NCBI GenBank assembly: GCA_905381055.1
Contig: CAJPUR010000013.1
Span: 62,001 to 126,000 of the forward strand
Direction of reading: 5' to 3'
Length of the DNA stretch: 64,000 bases
DNA from: an uncultured Flavobacteriaceae bacterium
Lineage (GTDB): Bacteria > Bacteroidota > Bacteroidia > Flavobacteriales > Flavobacteriaceae
Below are positions 12,247-20,208 of the stretch, one piece after another (position 1 is the first letter of the stretch; each line of letters opens with the position of its first letter). Under the pieces are notes generated by a model that was not told the origin of the DNA, did no database searches, and was given only the letters and a program-made list of their open reading frames with translations. A program made the position numbers and the translations under genes.

Positions 12247-12837
12247 TTATTTTTTGCGACCCTCTAATTTATCAATAACATCTGTAAATGAAAAACCTTT
12301 TGATTTGATTAGAATAAGGAAATGAAATAAAACATCTGCTGATTCATTTAAAAACAATTCGTCTTTATCATCTTTCGATTCTATTACAAGCTCAACAGCC
12401 TCCTCTCCAAACTTTTGTGCAATCTTATTAATTCCTTTATTAAAAAGGGAGGAAACGTAACTTTTTTCATCCCTATTACTGAATCTGTCTGATATTATCT
12501 CCTCCAATTCAGTTACAAAAGAAATTTGTTCAAAGTTTTTTTCACCCCAACAGGTGTCATCTCCCTTGTGACAGACATTTCCAGCTGGAATTGCTCTGAC
12601 AAGTAATGTATCATTATCACAATCACTTTTCATTGAGATAAATTCCAAAAAATTTCCACTCTCCTCACCTTTCATCCAAATTCTTTTTTTTGATCTGCTA
12701 TAAAAAGTAACTTTTTTATTTTTCTTTGTTAGATAAATTGCTTCAGTATTCATATAACCAAGCATAAGTACAACTTTTGTTTTTTCGTCCTGAACAATAG
12801 CAGGAACTAATCCGTTTTTATCAAAATTAACTTTCAT
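12247..12837 (-). CDS. hisIE: Bifunctional phosphoribosyl-AMP cyclohydrolase / phosphoribosyl-ATP pyrophosphatase
   Basis: Catalyses steps 2 and 3 of histidine synthesis. The N-terminal HisI domain (about 1-105) carries the Zn/Mg motifs [29 protein letters not shown]. The C-terminal HisE domain (about 110-196) carries [16 protein letters not shown] and [13 protein letters not shown], a MazG-like acidic cluster. Length of 196 aa fits the fused enzyme. The start overlaps the hisF stop by 4 bp. It is the last his gene of the operon. Confidence 0.97.
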
Positions 12838-13589
12838 AATCTTACTGGTATATTTTTCTTCTGTAAATGTTCTTTTAATTCTTTTATCCTTATTTCATCG
12901 TAGTGAAAAACAGAGGCAGCAAGTGCTGCATCAGCCTTTCCTATTTCGAAGGCCTCATAGAAATGTTTTAAGTTTCCTGCCCCTCCTGACGCAATAACAG
13001 GAATGTTTACAATTTTTGAAAGTTTATGTAATGCTGAATTTGCAAAACCATTTTTTGTTCCATCATTATCCATTGAAGTAAACAAAATTTCTCCGGCCCC
13101 TCTTAATTCAACTTCACTAGCCCAATCAAATAGACTAATATTAGTTTTTTCTTTACCCCCAACTAAATGTACAATCCATTTATTATTAATTTTTTTTGCA
13201 TCTATAGCAACTACAACGCATTGATTTCCAAATGCATTAGACATTTCATTAATAAGATTGGGGTTTTTAACTGCAGCAGAGTTAATTGAAACTTTATCTG
13301 CACCATTTTTAAGTAATATTTTTGCATCTTTTAGAGATGAAACCCCTCCTCCTACTGTAAAAGGAATATCTAAAGCTTCAGCAACTCTCAAAACAAGATC
13401 TGAAAGAGTTTTTCTTTTTTGTTCAGTAGCAGAAATATCTAAAAAAACTAGTTCATCAGCACCTTCAATAGTATATCTTTTTGCCAACTCAACTGGATCT
13501 CCAGCATCTATTAAATTAATAAAATTTATGCCTTTAACAGTTCTTCCGTCTTTAATATCTAAACAAGGTATTATTCTCTTTGCAATCAT
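12834..13589 (-). CDS. hisF: Imidazole glycerol phosphate synthase, cyclase subunit
   Basis: HisF receives ammonia from HisH and forms imidazole glycerol phosphate plus AICAR. It is a beta/alpha barrel with the canonical start [20 protein letters not shown], catalytic Asp in CLDIKDG and in the half-barrel repeat (VVVAIDAKK / [14 protein letters not shown]), and phosphate loops VGGGVSS and ASGGAGN. I chose the ATG at 13589 rather than the one at 13601: the first would add MISF, which homologues lack, and would run into hisA. Confidence 0.97.
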
Positions 13590-13593
13590 AAAA

Positions 13594-14313
13594 CTAATCA
13601 TTAAAATTAGACAAATCTCTCAAACTAATCTCATTTTCATAGATAGCTTTTCCAATAATAACTCCTTCACATCCTAACATTGATAAAATTGACAAATCAC
13701 TTATTTTCGTGACACCTCCTGAAGCAATTAATTTTATAATTTTATTTTTTTTAATTATTTTTTCATAAAGCTTAAATGAAGGTCCATCTAACATTCCATC
13801 TTTATCAATGTCAGTGCAGATAACATATTTAATACCATATTTAAGGTAGCTCTTTATAAAAGGTTCAACTTTAGTTTCAGATATCCTATTCCAGGCATTA
13901 ATAGCGACATTGCCATTTTTGACATCTGCCCCTAATATAATTTTATCTTCACCATAATTTTCAATCCAAGTTTTAAATAATTCAGGATTATTGATGGCAA
14001 TGCTCCCACCAGTAATTTGATCAGCTCCAGATTCAAAAGCAATTTTTACATCATCATTGGACTTCAAACCACCACCAAAATCAATTTTTAGATTAGTTTT
14101 TGATGAAAGGTTTTCCAAAACCTTGTGATTAATTATTTTTTTAGCCTTAGCTCCATCAAGATCTACAAGGTGTAAATATTCAAATCCAAAATCCTCAAAG
14201 GTTTTTGCCATATCTAATGGAATTTCATTGTAAATTTTTTTTGTGGAATACTTACCCTTTGATAATCTTACGCACTTACCATCAATAATATCTATAGCCG
14301 GTATAATTCTCAT
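13594..14313 (-). CDS. hisA: Phosphoribosylformimino-AICAR-P isomerase
   Basis: HisA opens the ribose ring of ProFAR, the step before HisHF. This 239-aa beta/alpha barrel begins [20 protein letters not shown] (catalytic Asp in AIDI), has DFGGGLKS and [11 protein letters not shown] phosphate loops, and the second catalytic Asp in [16 protein letters not shown]. It sits 1 bp after hisH and 4 bp before hisF. Confidence 0.97.
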
Positions 14314-14314
14314 T

Positions 14315-14896
14315 TTATATTTTTAAAAAATTTTCAAGTAAAAGTAAACCATCATTACTACTTTTTTCTGGATGAAATTGAACCCCATAAAAATTATTTT
14401 TTTCGATTGCAACACTATAGTTTAATGAATAAAATGAATGTGCAGAGGTCTCATCAATTAATGGAACGTAAAAACTATGAACTAAATACATATATGCGTC
14501 TTGTTTAATTCCTTTAAATAAATTTCTAGATAAATGATTAACAGTATTCCATCCCATTTGAGGGACTTTGACAGTGTCTGGGAATTTTTCAACATTAATT
14601 TTTATAATCCCTAAACCTTGAGTGTTGCCCTCTTTAGTTTTTAGACATAACAACTGCATTCCGAGACATATTCCTAATAGAGGTTGTTTTAAATTAGGTA
14701 TAACTTTGTCAAGACCTTTTTTTTTTAATTTTATCATAGCACTAGAGGCTTGACCCTGTCCTGGAAAAATTACTTTATCTGCAGAAGAAATTTTTTCTGG
14801 ATCATTAGATAAAATAGAATTAACCCCCAACTTATTTAAAGCAAATTGAAGACTTCTAACATTACCAGCATCGTAATCAATTATAATAACATTCAT
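14315..14896 (-). CDS. hisH: Imidazole glycerol phosphate synthase, glutaminase subunit
   Basis: A class I glutamine amidotransferase of 193 aa that supplies ammonia to HisF. The triad is visible: nucleophile Cys in [11 protein letters not shown], and His/Glu in [10 protein letters not shown]. The oxyanion strand is [13 protein letters not shown] and the start [20 protein letters not shown] is typical. It lies between hisB (5 bp away) and hisA. Confidence 0.97.
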
Positions 14897-14901
14897 AAAA
14901 A

Positions 14902-16029
14902 TTATAGTTTACCTTTAGTGGTTGGTAAAATCATTTTACTATTATCCCTTTTAACTGCAAACTTTAGAGCCTTTGCAAAGGCTTTAAAAATAGCCTCAAT
15001 TTTATGATGTTCATTTTTGCCTTCGGCTTTAATATTAATATTAGCTTTGGATGAATCAGCAAAAGACTTAAAAAAATGACTAAACATTTCAGTTGGCATT
15101 TTACCAATCATTTCTCTATTGAAATCTGCTTCCCATACTAACCAACTTCTCCCTCCAAAATCTAATGAGACTTGGGCTAAAGAATCATCCATTGGCAATG
15201 AGAAACCATACCTTTCGATACCAATTTTATTTCCTAATGCATTTTTTAAGGCCTTCCCTAGTGCTATTGCAGTATCTTCAATTGTATGATGTTCATCAAT
15301 ATTTAAATCCCCTTCAACTCTAATTTTTAAATCAATCCCTCCATGCTTTGATAATTGATCTAACATATGATCAAAAAAAGAGATTCCTGTATTAATATCA
15401 CTTTCACCTGATCCATCTATATTTATCTCTATACTTATATTGGTCTCATTAGTTTTTCTTTCATATACTGATGAACGGGATTTAGTAAGTAAATACTTAT
15501 AGATTTGATTCCATTTTTTGGTTTTAAGAACAATAGTCTCATTTAAATCATCGTCTCTAACTTCCTCACTTCCAAGAGTTTCATTATTACAAATAAAAAT
15601 ACCTTTACAGTTTAAATTTTTAGCAAATTTCATATCAGTTAACCTGTCTCCTATCACAAAAGAATTTTTTAAATCATACCTTCCATTAATATATTTTTCT
15701 ACTAAAGCAGTGCCAGGTTTTCTTGTAAGAGAATTATCATTAGGAAAAGTTTTATCGATTAGTACTTCGTTGAATTTTATACCTTCACCCTCTAAAACAT
15801 TAATAATAAAATTTTGAAATGGCCAAAAATCCTCTTCTGGAAAAGATTTTGTTCCCAAACCATCCTGATTTGTTATTAATACTAATTCAAAATCTAAATC
15901 ACGATAAATACTTGAAAGTGAATTAATGACTTCAGGATAAAAAATTAATTTTTTAAATTCATCTAATTGATAATCATCTGGCTCTTTAACTATCGTCCCA
16001 TCGCGGTCTATAAAAAGTATTTTTTTCAT
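14902..16029 (-). CDS. hisB: Bifunctional histidinol-phosphatase / imidazoleglycerol-phosphate dehydratase
   Basis: A 375-aa fusion. Residues about 1-165 are a HAD phosphatase (FIDRDGTIVKEP, LITNQDGLG, and VIGDRLTDMKFA). Residues about 185-375 are the IGP dehydratase with the metal-binding repeats FFDHMLDQLSKHGG...DEHHTIEDTAIALG and HFFKSFADSSK...NEHHKIEAIFKAFAKAL. The fused form is shared by enterobacteria and Bacteroidota. The start overlaps the hisC stop (ATGA). Confidence 0.97.
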   Translation of the reverse strand: MKKILFIDRDGTIVKEPDDYQLDEFKKLIFYPEVINSLSSIYRDLDFELVLITNQDGLGTKSFPEEDFWPFQNFIINVLEGEGIKFNEVLIDKTFPNDNSLTRKPGTALVEKYINGRYDLKNSFVIGDRLTDMKFAKNLNCKGIFICNNETLGSEEVRDDDLNETIVLKTKKWNQIYKYLLTKSRSSVYERKTNETNISIEINIDGSGESDINTGISFFDHMLDQLSKHGGIDLKIRVEGDLNIDEHHTIEDTAIALGKALKNALGNKIGIERYGFSLPMDDSLAQVSLDFGGRSWLVWEADFNREMIGKMPTEMFSHFFKSFADSSKANINIKAEGKNEHHKIEAIFKAFAKALKFAVKRDNSKMILPTTKGKL

Positions 16030-17081
16030 ACATCAATTTCTTTACAGATATTTATAAATTTACTATTTTCCTCAGGTGTTCCAACTGTAACTCTTAAAGT
16101 ATTCTCACATCCTGTAAGGTGAGATCTATTTCTAAGGACTACTCCTTTAGACAAAAACTGGTTATATCTTTTTTCAGCCTGATCGACCATTATAAGCAGA
16201 AAGTTTGCATCACTTGAAAAAATTTTTACAATGAATTTAAATTTAATTAATTGTTTTTCTAGGTTTTTTCTTTCATCCAATATTTTATTGATTACATTAT
16301 TTATTTTTTCAGGTGACTCTAAAAGCTTAAGAGCTCTATCTTGGGTTAAAGAATTTACATTATAGGGGGGCTTAATTTTGTTAAAATAATTTATAAAAAT
16401 TGAATTTGCAAAACACATACCCAAACGTATACCTGCCATTCCATATGCTTTAGAAAAAGTTTGACATACAATCAGATTAGGATAAGTTTTAATCAAACCA
16501 ATAAGACTTTCACATTCAGAAAAATCTACATAAGCCTCATCTAAAACAACAATCCCGGAAAATTTATTTAAAATAGCAATTATTTGTTCAGTTGGTATAG
16601 AATTACCTGTTGGATTATTTGGGCTACAAATAAATATAATCTTAGTTTTTTTAGAGATTTTATTAAAAATCAAATTTAAATTCAATTCAAATTTCTCATT
16701 TAATCTAACCTTCTTTATTATTAATTGATTAATATTTGAAAGAACCTCATACATACCATAAGTTGGAGGTAATAATATAACTTCATCTTGACTTGGCTCA
16801 CAAAATGTTCTGATAATTATATCTAATATTTCATCGCTACCATTTCCTAATAAAATCTGGTTTGGATTTACAAGTTTTAAACTAGCAATTGACTTTTTCA
16901 GTTTCACCTGAAATGGATCAGGGTATCTGTTAACACTATTTTTATATGGATTTTCATTTGCATCCATAAATATTTTGTCTTCATCCAAATTATAAAATTC
17001 ATTTCTGGCAGAACTGTATGATTTTATTAATTTTATAATTGGCCTAACTAGTTTTTCTAAATTAATTTCACTCATAATCAT
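16026..17081 (-). CDS. hisC: Histidinol-phosphate aminotransferase
   Basis: A PLP fold-type I aminotransferase of 351 aa, converting imidazole acetol phosphate to histidinol phosphate with glutamate as donor. Visible are MDANENPY, LLGNGSDEILDIIIRTF, SPNNPTGNSIP, VVLDEAYVDFS and the PLP lysine in CQTFSKAYGMAGIRLG, ending with RVTVGTPEENSKF. The ATG at 17081 overlaps the hisD stop (ATGA), which favours it, but an ATG two codons downstream is equally good by homology. Confidence 0.96.
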   Translation of the reverse strand: MIMSEINLEKLVRPIIKLIKSYSSARNEFYNLDEDKIFMDANENPYKNSVNRYPDPFQVKLKKSIASLKLVNPNQILLGNGSDEILDIIIRTFCEPSQDEVILLPPTYGMYEVLSNINQLIIKKVRLNEKFELNLNLIFNKISKKTKIIFICSPNNPTGNSIPTEQIIAILNKFSGIVVLDEAYVDFSECESLIGLIKTYPNLIVCQTFSKAYGMAGIRLGMCFANSIFINYFNKIKPPYNVNSLTQDRALKLLESPEKINNVINKILDERKNLEKQLIKFKFIVKIFSSDANFLLIMVDQAEKRYNQFLSKGVVLRNRSHLTGCENTLRVTVGTPEENSKFINICKEIDV

Positions 17082-18358
17082 AATGATTTTAACCTAATTG
17101 AAACAGCATTTTTGTGAGCTTCAAGTCCCTCAGCTAAAGCCATTTTTTCAATCGTCGGGCCAAGCTTCGACAATCCCTCTGCTGAAATTTTTTGAAAAGT
17201 GACAGCTTTCAAATAACTGTCTAAATTAACTCCACTATATTGTCTTGCATATCCGTTAGTTGGAAGAGTATGATTAGTTCCAGACGCATAATCACCTGCA
17301 CTTTCAGGTGTATAGTTACCAATAAAAACTGAACCAGCATTAATAATTTTATCAATAAATTCATTATTTTTTTCTAAGCACACTATTAAGTGCTCTGGAC
17401 CATAAAAGTTTGTAAAATCTATAAGATCGTTATAATTATCAAAATATATAACTTTAGAGTTATTAAGTGCTGCACTAGCTATGTCTTTTCTTTCTAATGC
17501 ATTTAATTGGTTAATTAATTTTTTGATTGTTTTATCAGCAATTTGAGTATTATTTGTTACTAAAAATACTTGACTGTCGACACCGTGTTCAGCTTGAGAT
17601 AATAAGTCGGAAGCAATGAAATCTGGATTAGCAGATTCATCAGCAACAATCATTAATTCACTTGGTCCTGCTGGTAAGTCAATTGCTACTTTATACTGAG
17701 ACGCTATTTGTTTACCAACAGTAACATATTGATTTCCAGGACCAAATATCTTGTCTACCTTTGGTATTGATTTTGTACCAAACGTCATTGCAGCAATTGC
17801 CTGAATTCCTCCAACTTTATATATTTTATCAACACCACATAAATCTGCAGTATAAAGCATAACATCGGCAAGATCACCATTAGCATCTGGTGGAGAACAC
17901 AATATAACTTGACTACAGTTAGCTACTTTAGCAGGTACAGCTAACATTAGAATAGAAGAAAATAATGGAGCCGACCCTCCAGGGATATAAAGACCAACTC
18001 TTTCAATTGGAAGTTTTTTTTGCCAACATAGTACACCTGGTTGAGTTTCGACTTCAACAGTTTTTGTAATCTGTGCTTTATGAAATAGCTTTATATTTCT
18101 CTTAGCATTTTGAATTGCTAGTTTAAGATCATGTGGGACATTTTCAATTGCTTTTAGAATTTCATCTTTACTTACCTTTAAAGAGTCAAGTTCAACATTA
18201 TCAAATTTTTTTGAATATTTATTTACAGCATTGTCACCATTTTCTTCAACATCAGTGAAAATTGCCTTAGCTAGGGGTTCAATTTTTTCGTATGAAAGCG
18301 AAGCTCTTTTAACTAATGTTGACCAAATGTTTTTACTTGGATTAATTATTTTATTCAT
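17078..18358 (-). CDS. hisD: Histidinol dehydrogenase
   Basis: A zinc enzyme of 426 aa that oxidises histidinol to histidine in two NAD-dependent steps. Key blocks: GLYIPGGSAPLFSSILMLAVPA, VDKIFGPGNQYVTVGK, PAGPSELMIVADE, the catalytic LLSQAEHGVDSQVFLV and the C-terminal PTNGYARQYSGVN. Length fits the family. The ATG overlaps the hisG stop (TAATG). Confidence 0.98.
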   Translation of the reverse strand: MNKIINPSKNIWSTLVKRASLSYEKIEPLAKAIFTDVEENGDNAVNKYSKKFDNVELDSLKVSKDEILKAIENVPHDLKLAIQNAKRNIKLFHKAQITKTVEVETQPGVLCWQKKLPIERVGLYIPGGSAPLFSSILMLAVPAKVANCSQVILCSPPDANGDLADVMLYTADLCGVDKIYKVGGIQAIAAMTFGTKSIPKVDKIFGPGNQYVTVGKQIASQYKVAIDLPAGPSELMIVADESANPDFIASDLLSQAEHGVDSQVFLVTNNTQIADKTIKKLINQLNALERKDIASAALNNSKVIYFDNYNDLIDFTNFYGPEHLIVCLEKNNEFIDKIINAGSVFIGNYTPESAGDYASGTNHTLPTNGYARQYSGVNLDSYLKAVTFQKISAEGLSKLGPTIEKMALAEGLEAHKNAVSIRLKSL

Positions 18359-19209
18359 TATATTACCATTTTTTCAATCGGACAAACTAAAATATCTTCT
18401 GCACCAGCTAATTTAAGTTCATCTATTACCTCCCAAAAAGATTCGTCATCTATCACTGAGTGAAGTGAAGACCATCCCTTTTGATTTAAGGGTAATACAG
18501 TTGGACTCTTCAAAACTGGTAAAATCTTACTAATGCTTGATATCTTGTCATTAGGGGCATTTAATAAAATATACTTTGATTTTCTGGCTTTTAATACACT
18601 TTTAATTCTAAAAATTAATTTATTAATTAAAATCCGCTTATCATTTGATAAGTTAGATGTCTGAACAAGAACTGCCTCCGAATTAATTATAGTAATAACC
18701 TCCTTAAGATTATTTTTAAAAAGCGTACTTCCGCTAGAAACAATATCACATATTGCATCTGATAAACCAATATTTGGAGCGATTTCAACAGATCCATTTA
18801 TAACATGTAATTCAGCAGAAATCATATTTTTCTTTAGAAATTTATTAATGGTGTTTGGATATGATGTGGCAATTTTTTTACCATTTAGGTCTTTAATGTT
18901 ATTATATTTAAAACCTTTAGGTACTGCGATTGAAACTCTACATTTAGAAAAACCTAATTTCTCAATTACATTAAAATCGCTACCCTTTTCGTAGATTAAG
19001 TTTTCACCAATTATAGCCAAATCAATCACTCCATCTCTCAAGTATTGAGGAATATCACCATTTCTAAGAAAAAAAATATCCAATGGAAAATTAGAAGCCG
19101 ATACTTTCAATTGGTCATTAAAATTATCAATACTAATTCCACACTTTTTTAGCAAATTAATAGACTCTTTATTAAGTCTTCCAGATTTTTGAATTCCTAT
19201 TTTTATCAT
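18358..19209 (-). CDS. hisG: ATP phosphoribosyltransferase, long form
   Basis: The first committed step: ATP plus PRPP to phosphoribosyl-ATP. At 283 aa it is the long (HisG_L) type with a C-terminal ACT-like regulatory domain (about 210-283, KSPTVLPLNQKGWSSLHSVIDDESFW...AEDILVCPIEKM), so it should be directly feedback-inhibited by histidine and not need HisZ. The catalytic part has KSGRLNKES, DLAIIGENLIYEKG, KIATSYPN, and the PRPP loop in DAICDIVSSGSTL. It is the first structural gene of the operon, right behind the candidate attenuator. Confidence 0.97.
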   Translation of the reverse strand: MIKIGIQKSGRLNKESINLLKKCGISIDNFNDQLKVSASNFPLDIFFLRNGDIPQYLRDGVIDLAIIGENLIYEKGSDFNVIEKLGFSKCRVSIAVPKGFKYNNIKDLNGKKIATSYPNTINKFLKKNMISAELHVINGSVEIAPNIGLSDAICDIVSSGSTLFKNNLKEVITIINSEAVLVQTSNLSNDKRILINKLIFRIKSVLKARKSKYILLNAPNDKISSISKILPVLKSPTVLPLNQKGWSSLHSVIDDESFWEVIDELKLAGAEDILVCPIEKMVI

Positions 19210-19224
19210 AATATTTAAAATAAA

Positions 19225-19252
19225 AAAACCCGTTTGTAAACAAACGGGTTTT
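19225..19252 (-). terminator. Rho-independent terminator in the his leader (attenuator)
   Basis: Read on the minus strand: AAAACCCGTTTG, loop TTTA, CAAACGGGTTTT, a perfect 12-bp stem, with the U-run reaching 7 T (19228-19222). It lies 16 bp before the hisG ATG and after the leader peptide, so it would stop transcription before the operon unless disrupted. It cannot serve the upstream SPFH gene alone, because the his promoter and leader peptide lie between. Confidence 0.85.
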
Positions 19253-19291
19253 GGTATGAGTTTATATAATATCCAACTATGCCTCGTTTGT
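19240..19291 (-). promoter_or_regulatory. Candidate antiterminator of the his attenuator
   Basis: The last codons of the leader peptide contain ACAAACG (19291-19285), an exact complement of CGTTTGT (19246-19240), the 5' arm plus first loop base of the terminator. With one bulged A, two further G-C pairs can form. Pairing would free the terminator 3' arm. A ribosome finishing the leader peptide would cover 19291-19285 and let the terminator form; one stalled at the His codons would not. No competing regulatory RNA family is recognised. Confidence 0.7.
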
Positions 19292-19333
19292 ACAAGAGAT
19301 AAAATAATGGATATGTAATTTTTTTAAAAACAT
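19277..19333 (-). CDS. hisL: Histidine operon leader peptide (18 aa)
   Basis: The minus-strand ORF MFLKKLHIHYFISCTNEA with TAG stop lies between the his promoter and the leader terminator. It contains two His codons (19315-19313 and 19309-19307) in the run His-Ile-His-Tyr. Its final codons overlap the antiterminator arm, the geometry of classical translation-coupled attenuation. Two His codons are few compared with the enterobacterial leader with seven, so the call rests on the layout as much as on composition. Confidence 0.7.
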   Translation of the reverse strand: MFLKKLHIHYFISCTNEA

Positions 19334-19338
19334 TTTCA

Positions 19339-19371
19339 CAAAGATATTTATTAATTTTTGAATAATCCAAA
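19339..19371 (-). promoter_or_regulatory. his operon promoter (TTTG-N21-TATCTTTG)
   Basis: The minus strand has TTTG (19371-19368), 21 bp, then TATCTTTG (19346-19339), which fits the Bacteroidota consensus -33 TTTG / -7 TAnnTTTG with allowed spacing. Only five bases separate the -7 box from the leader-peptide ATG, so the transcript would begin at or within a few bases of that codon. Confidence 0.65.
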
Positions 19372-19389
19372 AATTTGTAACAAATAATT

Positions 19390-20208
19390 TTACTGATTAC
19401 CTAAAATTAAAGGCATGCCTGATTCACCTCCACCAATAATAATAACCTTTGAGTTAGGTGATTCAGAGATTTGTCTTGTTGCATCAATACCCTTTTCTTG
19501 AAGAATCTTGGCTGTTAACGAGGCACTTAAAATTCTATTTGCTTTTGCTTTACCTTCAGCATCTATCCTTTGTCTTTCAGCTTCTTGTCTGGCTCTTTCT
19601 AGCCTAAATTCATATTCTAAAGCCTCTTGTTCTTGAGTCAATTTTCTTCCAATTGCCTCTCTGATTGTTACAGGCAAAGTAACATCTCTGACTAAAACTG
19701 CATTTAATTGAACATATTGTTCTTCAACTACCTTCTTAGTTTCAATAAAAATCTCATTTTGTATAGCATCTCTCTTGGTTGAATATAATTGCTCAGGAGT
19801 ATATCTTCCAACTACACTTCTAGCTACAGCCCTAATTTGTGGGATGATAATAACGTTTAAGTAATTCTCACCCTTAGTTTTATGAAGTTTACCAAGGTCT
19901 TCAATTTTTGGCTGATAAAGCACAGAAATATCTAGACTGATTTCAAGTCCGTTTGAAGAAAGGACCTGCATTTTACTCTCAAATACTTCTTGCTGCTTTA
20001 CATTATAAATATACACCTGATTCCAAGGGGCAATAATATGAAACCCTTCTCCTAATGGAGGCTCATCAGTAACTACTCCTCCACCAAATGTTTTAAATAA
20101 TACTCCTGCTTCACCATATCCTATATTAATTGAAGCTTTTGAGATAAAAACAATAAGCACAAAAGCAAGTGCTATAACCGGTAATCCTATCTTAGGTAAA
20201 TTTTGCAT
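19390..20208 (-). CDS. Prohibitin-like SPFH/band 7 membrane protein
   Basis: A 272-aa protein with an N-terminal TM anchor (IGLPVIALAFVLIVFISKA, about 7-25), an SPFH domain (about 30-190: GEAGVLFKTFGGGV, EGFHIIAPWNQVYIYNVKQQ, VARSVVGRYTPEQLYSTKRD) and an alanine/glutamate-rich coiled coil (YEFRLERARQEAERQRIDAEGKAKANRIL), ending near ILGNQ. These features match prohibitins, ring-forming scaffolds that often associate with membrane proteases. Downstream of fabG on the same strand; 19 bp separate them. Confidence 0.9.
   Translation of the reverse strand: MQNLPKIGLPVIALAFVLIVFISKASINIGYGEAGVLFKTFGGGVVTDEPPLGEGFHIIAPWNQVYIYNVKQQEVFESKMQVLSSNGLEISLDISVLYQPKIEDLGKLHKTKGENYLNVIIIPQIRAVARSVVGRYTPEQLYSTKRDAIQNEIFIETKKVVEEQYVQLNAVLVRDVTLPVTIREAIGRKLTQEQEALEYEFRLERARQEAERQRIDAEGKAKANRILSASLTAKILQEKGIDATRQISESPNSKVIIIGGGESGMPLILGNQ

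Follow-up and report, generated by a model that had tools for sequence, protein, structure and literature searches.

Among the described systems, the his attenuator of Escherichia coli and Salmonella (hisL) has, like the element considered here, a His leader ORF, alternative RNA pairings and an intrinsic terminator before hisG. The E. coli leader carries a run of seven His, with an antiterminator arm well beyond the ORF, whereas the Bacteroidota element has two to six His and a single two-way switch, its arm being placed at the stop or within the final codons of the leader. The trp attenuator of E. coli (trpL) is a compact two-way switch, where an arm just past the regulatory codons pairs with the 5′ arm of the terminator and two regulatory codons are enough; it differs from the his element in the amino acid concerned and shows no homology to it. 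A comparative study of attenuation across bacteria by Lopatovskaya and others (2010) may list cases from Bacteroidetes. Naville and Gautheret (2010; PMC2965389) described Proteobacteria and Actinobacteria as the only groups with demonstrated leader-peptide systems up to then, and added Firmicutes. The Bacteroid-trp RNA motif (RF01692), listed in PMC2864571, is likewise a predicted cis-regulatory RNA of Bacteroidetes, named after trp, but its operon and sequence are unlike those of the his element.

Guerin et al. (2021; PMC9723704) reported strong clues for leader-peptide attenuation before amino-acid operons of Flavobacterium psychrophilum, as well as a 5′ structure upstream of hisG that other Flavobacteriaceae share and that no Rfam family matches; their main text presents no arms, covariation or spread outside Flavobacteriaceae. 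This structured element precedes the same gene in the same bacterial family, also without an Rfam match, and it is almost certainly the element analysed here. The element type is already known, and the present study adds its demonstration through covariation, its distribution over much of the phylum and the probable near-leaderless start. The first-pass annotation had regarded such a compact attenuator as being of special interest in a phylum that does not rely on Shine-Dalgarno initiation; the case is less unusual than that suggested, as attenuation and the hisG structure had already been noted in Flavobacteriaceae (PMC9723704).

Layout of the site upstream of hisG

The site is the minus-strand region ahead of hisG in the genome of a marine flavobacterium; the term window denotes the whole 64-kb stretch of DNA that was analysed. 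All the parts named in the first-pass annotation are present on the minus strand, in the same arrangement. They include a Bacteroidota-type sigma-A promoter sequence (19339–19371), with TTTG at 19371–19368, a 21-nt spacer and TATCTTTG at 19346–19339, and an 18-codon ORF (19277–19333) encoding the leader peptide MFLKKLHIHYFISCTNEA and ending with the stop codon TAG at 19279–19277. The putative regulatory His codons lie in the sequence CAT ATC CAT (19307–19315; His at 19315–19313 and 19309–19307), and the antiterminator arm ACAAACG (arm 2, 19285–19291) is located within the last leader codons. They are followed by an intrinsic terminator (19222–19252) with a perfect 12-bp stem, AAAACCCGTTTG[TTTA]CAAACGGGTTTT (19252–19225), composed of the 5′ arm at 19252–19241, the loop at 19240–19237 and the 3′ arm at 19236–19225, with a T-run reaching 19222. 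The stem is 15 nt ahead of the hisG ATG at 19209. The complementarity claimed between ACAAACG and the terminator was also found to be exact: the arm is the 7-bp complement of CGTTTGT (19246–19240), which belongs to the 5′ arm and loop of the terminator. The terminator segment folds at −15.3 kcal/mol with a z-score of −4.8, more than a chance structure.

Two further pairings were predicted on the minus strand. A competing hairpin, UCUUGU/ACGAGG (19282–19297), would hide arm 2 in the absence of leader translation, as judged from the predicted fold and pairing probabilities. A weakly supported outer stem, formed by AUAUCCA (19314–19308) and UGGAUAU (19275–19269), was predicted around the His codons and arm 2 (19269–19314). 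The operon presumed to be under control comprises hisG, hisD, hisC, hisB, hisH, hisA, hisF and hisIE (12247–19209, minus strand); the ends of these ORFs overlap or adjoin from hisG to hisIE, and the genes were assigned using Pfam matches and gene order. The window leader contains two His codons versus three to five in most relatives, which counts against the attenuator reading; these codons sit where relatives carry CATCATCATCAT runs.

Conservation and covariation among relatives

The sample consisted of hisG upstream regions from 212 loci; HisG identity was 60% or more in 145 of them and lower in 67. A joint detector was applied, requiring an ORF of 8–45 codons in which seven codons include at least two His, a terminator no more than 70 nt away, and an arm whose pairing with the 5′ side of that terminator is −9 kcal/mol or stronger. 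The detector passed 141 of the 145 closer loci and 35 of the 67 more distant ones, with no passes in reverse complements and 0–0.3 in shuffles; when the 64-kb window was tiled on both strands, only the his site passed. The same steps, performed by hand on E. coli K-12 as a positive control, recovered hisL, its terminator and its antiterminator arm. A short His ORF with two to six His was found upstream of hisG in all 145 closer loci, and a terminator hairpin bearing a T-run in nearly all relatives; judging from sequence, the predicted his attenuator is conserved across much of Bacteroidota. This comparison of relatives, suggested in the first-pass annotation, bore out its expectation: the His-codon ORF and the arm complementarity are kept, with compensatory changes.

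Rfam covers the element with none of its families. RF00514 (His_leader) had no match in the window at the gathering score, nor at E-values up to 1 in the window locus and seven relatives; RF01692 had no match in the window or near trpE or pheA of the same genome, and no relevant Rfam family matched at gathering or permissive thresholds.

The covariation alignment included 137 elements of Flavobacteriales. In these sequences, the terminator pairs are kept in 97.6% of cells and the antiterminator pairs in 91.2%, the latter compared with 18–49% when the partner was slid by 1–3 nt; slid-partner controls over both pairings gave 18–57% paired (1–3 columns). Double changes in the antiterminator within Flavobacteriales amount to 28 cells in 4 pairs, and slid versions gave 5–15 cells; the native pairing exceeds every slid version in cells, but not in pairs, and the percentage paired is the stronger measure within this order. 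The commonest arm triple in the alignment is CTCAAGCG / CCGTTTGAG / TCAAACGGG, and that of the window is TACAAACG / CCGTTTGT / ACAAACGGG, with one stem position altered jointly in all three arms; in this three-way compensatory change of the window lineage, TCAAACG/CGTTTGA became ACAAACG/CGTTTGT, the 3′ arm of the terminator following. A joint change across three arms was also seen in L025 (AGACG/CGTCT/AGGCG), and other joint changes in L030 (AGACG/CGTCT), L071, L082 (CAGGTG/CGTCTG) and L021. Deeper in the phylum the arms are wholly different sequences, e.g., GGTAAGC/GCTTACC and CGCCGG/CCGGCG. In a swap test on 14 loci with dissimilar terminators, native arms paired at a mean of −16.0 kcal/mol versus −10.3 kcal/mol for swapped arms, and a mean as good as the native one did not occur in 100,000 permutations. 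With arms that turned over within a lasting architecture, the family offers well-suited natural material for testing models of attenuation.

Conservation of the peptide was considered as a cause of the conservation of the arm and was rejected, the frame through the arm varying between loci. Of the loci carrying the motif TCARRYG, 90 have it in phase 2 (giving peptide ends like -QAR), 25 in phase 0 (-SNEM) and 2 in phase 1; because the nucleotides of the arm are constant while the reading frame varies, it is the RNA pairing that is under selection and not the peptide. The outer stem was rejected as a firmly conserved element, being 58.9% paired in the alignment versus 35–53% in slid versions, with native pairing surpassing swapped pairing in 28 diverged relatives at p = 0.006; in the model it is possibly a pause or protector hairpin.

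The 32 distant loci that failed the joint test include 10 where no His leader was found and 19 with a His leader but with a terminator that the simple detector did not recognise; they may represent other mechanisms or misses of the detector. Several distant members of the phylum (L189, L190, L194, L195 and L197) have leader peptides with 8–12 His before hisG, and the detector found no terminator there. In three other distant Bacteroidota (L155, L164 and L166), the leader peptides end in HHFHHSS, the last codons and the stop form the hairpin ATTCCTCTTGAGAGGAAT, and an intrinsic terminator was not recognised between this leader and hisG; perhaps this arrangement is another way to use a His leader. 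No hisG match was found in two of the three congeners of the window genome (G001 and G003), one of which is 91% complete, so the his operon may have been lost in part of the genus, or the assemblies may be incomplete.

The proposed switch and alternative explanations

The site contains a short predicted leader ORF that includes codons for histidine, the product of the operon itself, a terminator between this ORF and the first structural gene, and an antiterminator pairing that excludes the terminator and is backed by covariation. It is very probably a ribosome-mediated, leader-peptide transcription attenuator of hisGDCBHAF(IE), sensing charged tRNA-His. The transcript would begin at about 19334, practically at the ATG of the leader. 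Under a shortage of His-tRNA, the ribosome would stall at CAT ATC CAT with its front edge short of ACAAACG, and the free arm would pair with the emerging CGUUUGU, blocking the terminator and letting RNA polymerase read into hisG. When His-tRNA is plentiful, the ribosome would reach the UAG and cover ACAAACG, so that the 12-bp terminator would form, with a termination point predicted 15 nt ahead of hisG. Without translation, arm 2 would be hidden in the local hairpin and termination would be favoured again.

The spacing of the parts is consistent with this scheme. If the front edge of the ribosome is assumed to lie 12 nt downstream of the start of the A-site codon, a ribosome stalled at the last His codon stops short of arm 2, which begins 18 nt beyond the first base of that codon. 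A ribosome terminating at the stop codon, 5 nt past the end of arm 2, would instead occupy it, so the arm is accessible in the first case and covered in the second. For the window RNA still short of its final terminator arm, the calculated antiterminator pairing probability is 0.96 with a stalled ribosome and 0.23 with no ribosome. The medians for the closer relatives are 0.96 stalled and 0.54 untranslated, and since the untranslated values vary widely among relatives, they support an off state as the default for the untranslated leader of the window, but give no general rule for the family.

Equilibrium folding does not fully account for the switch. In the thermodynamic model the completed terminator is the more stable form in every state, and in the window, at equilibrium with a stalled ribosome, the antiterminator reaches 0.07 and the terminator 0.93; since ribosome stalling does not keep the complete terminator from prevailing, the switch has to be a kinetic one. 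Classical attenuation models likewise hold the decision to be kinetic. The classical attenuation logic proposed in the first-pass annotation agrees with the architecture, conservation and covariation, with the qualification that it has to operate by kinetic competition, equilibrium favouring the terminator. If the predicted stalling and response to histidine hold, Bacteroidota gain a clear, conserved and testable case of ribosome–RNA polymerase coupling in gene control, in a phylum that initiates translation without Shine-Dalgarno pairing and uses a different promoter.

Several other explanations of the hairpin and the His ORF can be considered. The gene upstream encodes a Band_7 (SPFH) protein, runs in the same direction and ends at 19390 without a terminator of its own before the his promoter, so the hairpin might be the end-of-gene terminator of this gene and the His ORF accidental. 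This suggestion appears extremely unlikely: 67 of 143 relatives with leader and terminator show no recognisable Band_7 end within 420 nt upstream (in a crude motif test), which indicates that the element belongs to hisG, and the element is absent from shuffles and has an arm in the ORF that covaries with the terminator. The Band_7 reading was rejected on the basis of the relatives keeping the element without that gene end. Control might instead be translational, the leader governing translation of hisG through coupling or reinitiation and the hairpin being secondary; indeed, leader ORFs near structural genes can boost expression via reinitiation at 10–14 nt (PMC4833913). The distance from the leader stop to the hisG start, however, is 67 nt in the window and 63–226 nt (median 107) in relatives, too long and too variable for coupling, which is disfavoured for this reason, and the hairpin has the form of a canonical terminator, T-run included, in nearly all of them; we consider translational control very improbable.

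A terminator with a competing arm would also suit histidine sensing by a T-box, a riboswitch or an RNA-binding protein acting on the same terminator without leader translation. Such a sensor needs no in-frame His codons, but nearly all relatives keep them, positioned after the start codon and ahead of the arm, and no Rfam family, T-box included, matched the site; there is hardly any likelihood of another sensor of this kind.

Transcript start and other leaders of the same genome

In F. psychrophilum, the TAnnTTTG box is situated at −12 to −5 (PMC9723704); applying this spacing here places the predicted +1 at 19334, 1 nt before the leader ATG. A TAnnTTTG box occurs 4–8 nt ahead of the leader start in 50 of 145 relatives compared with 0.7 expected from shuffles, these 50 loci being related and hence not 50 independent events; a second group of relatives has the box 17–20 nt from the leader start. 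A TTG 17–23 nt upstream (strict pattern) accompanies the close box in only 19 of the 50 relatives. The short distance from the box to the leader start (19339–19333 in the window; also L001, L003 and L032–L056) implies a 5′ UTR of 0–4 nt for the his leader. The position of the promoter suggests that the leader peptide is probably leaderless, or nearly so, in the window clade. A 2020 study is said to have described leaderless Cys leaders in mycobacteria. Few mRNAs of the phylum are leaderless (5.5% in F. psychrophilum; PMC9723704).

A leader ORF that is likely near-leaderless offers a direct test of how mRNAs of this type take on ribosomes quickly enough to match the polymerase. The broader reading, in which a Bacteroidota-wide his attenuator family outside Rfam had its arms replaced several times with the His ORF kept, and in which the window-clade leader starts at or near the 5′ end and is loaded with ribosomes in the leaderless manner, seems to us evenly poised between being right and wrong. 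An Rfam-type model of the element would allow a large share of the his operons in Bacteroidota to be annotated.

Predicted leaders also occur before other operons in the genome containing the window. Upstream of pheA, which encodes prephenate dehydratase (L215, ~1353–1500, contig C27 of G000), the leader MKMSLDIYNNTKFYYFYFIEA, containing FYYFYF, precedes the terminator AAAGTCCTGTTTTACGGGACTTTTTTTTTT, whose 5′ arm pairs at −7.9 kcal/mol with a complementary arm, TAACAGACTTTT, located just past the ORF; by its sequence features, this is a predicted Phe (and Tyr) attenuator. Inspection by eye of the ilvD and thrA upstream regions revealed no clear leader. Upstream of trpE (L216, minus strand, same contig), the leader MIFNLKYTIWWSN has tandem Trp codons (WW) and precedes the terminator AAGGCTTGTCATCACGACAAGCCTTTTTT, making it a candidate Trp attenuator. 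The leader codons fit the product of the operon in all three cases (his, pheA and trpE).
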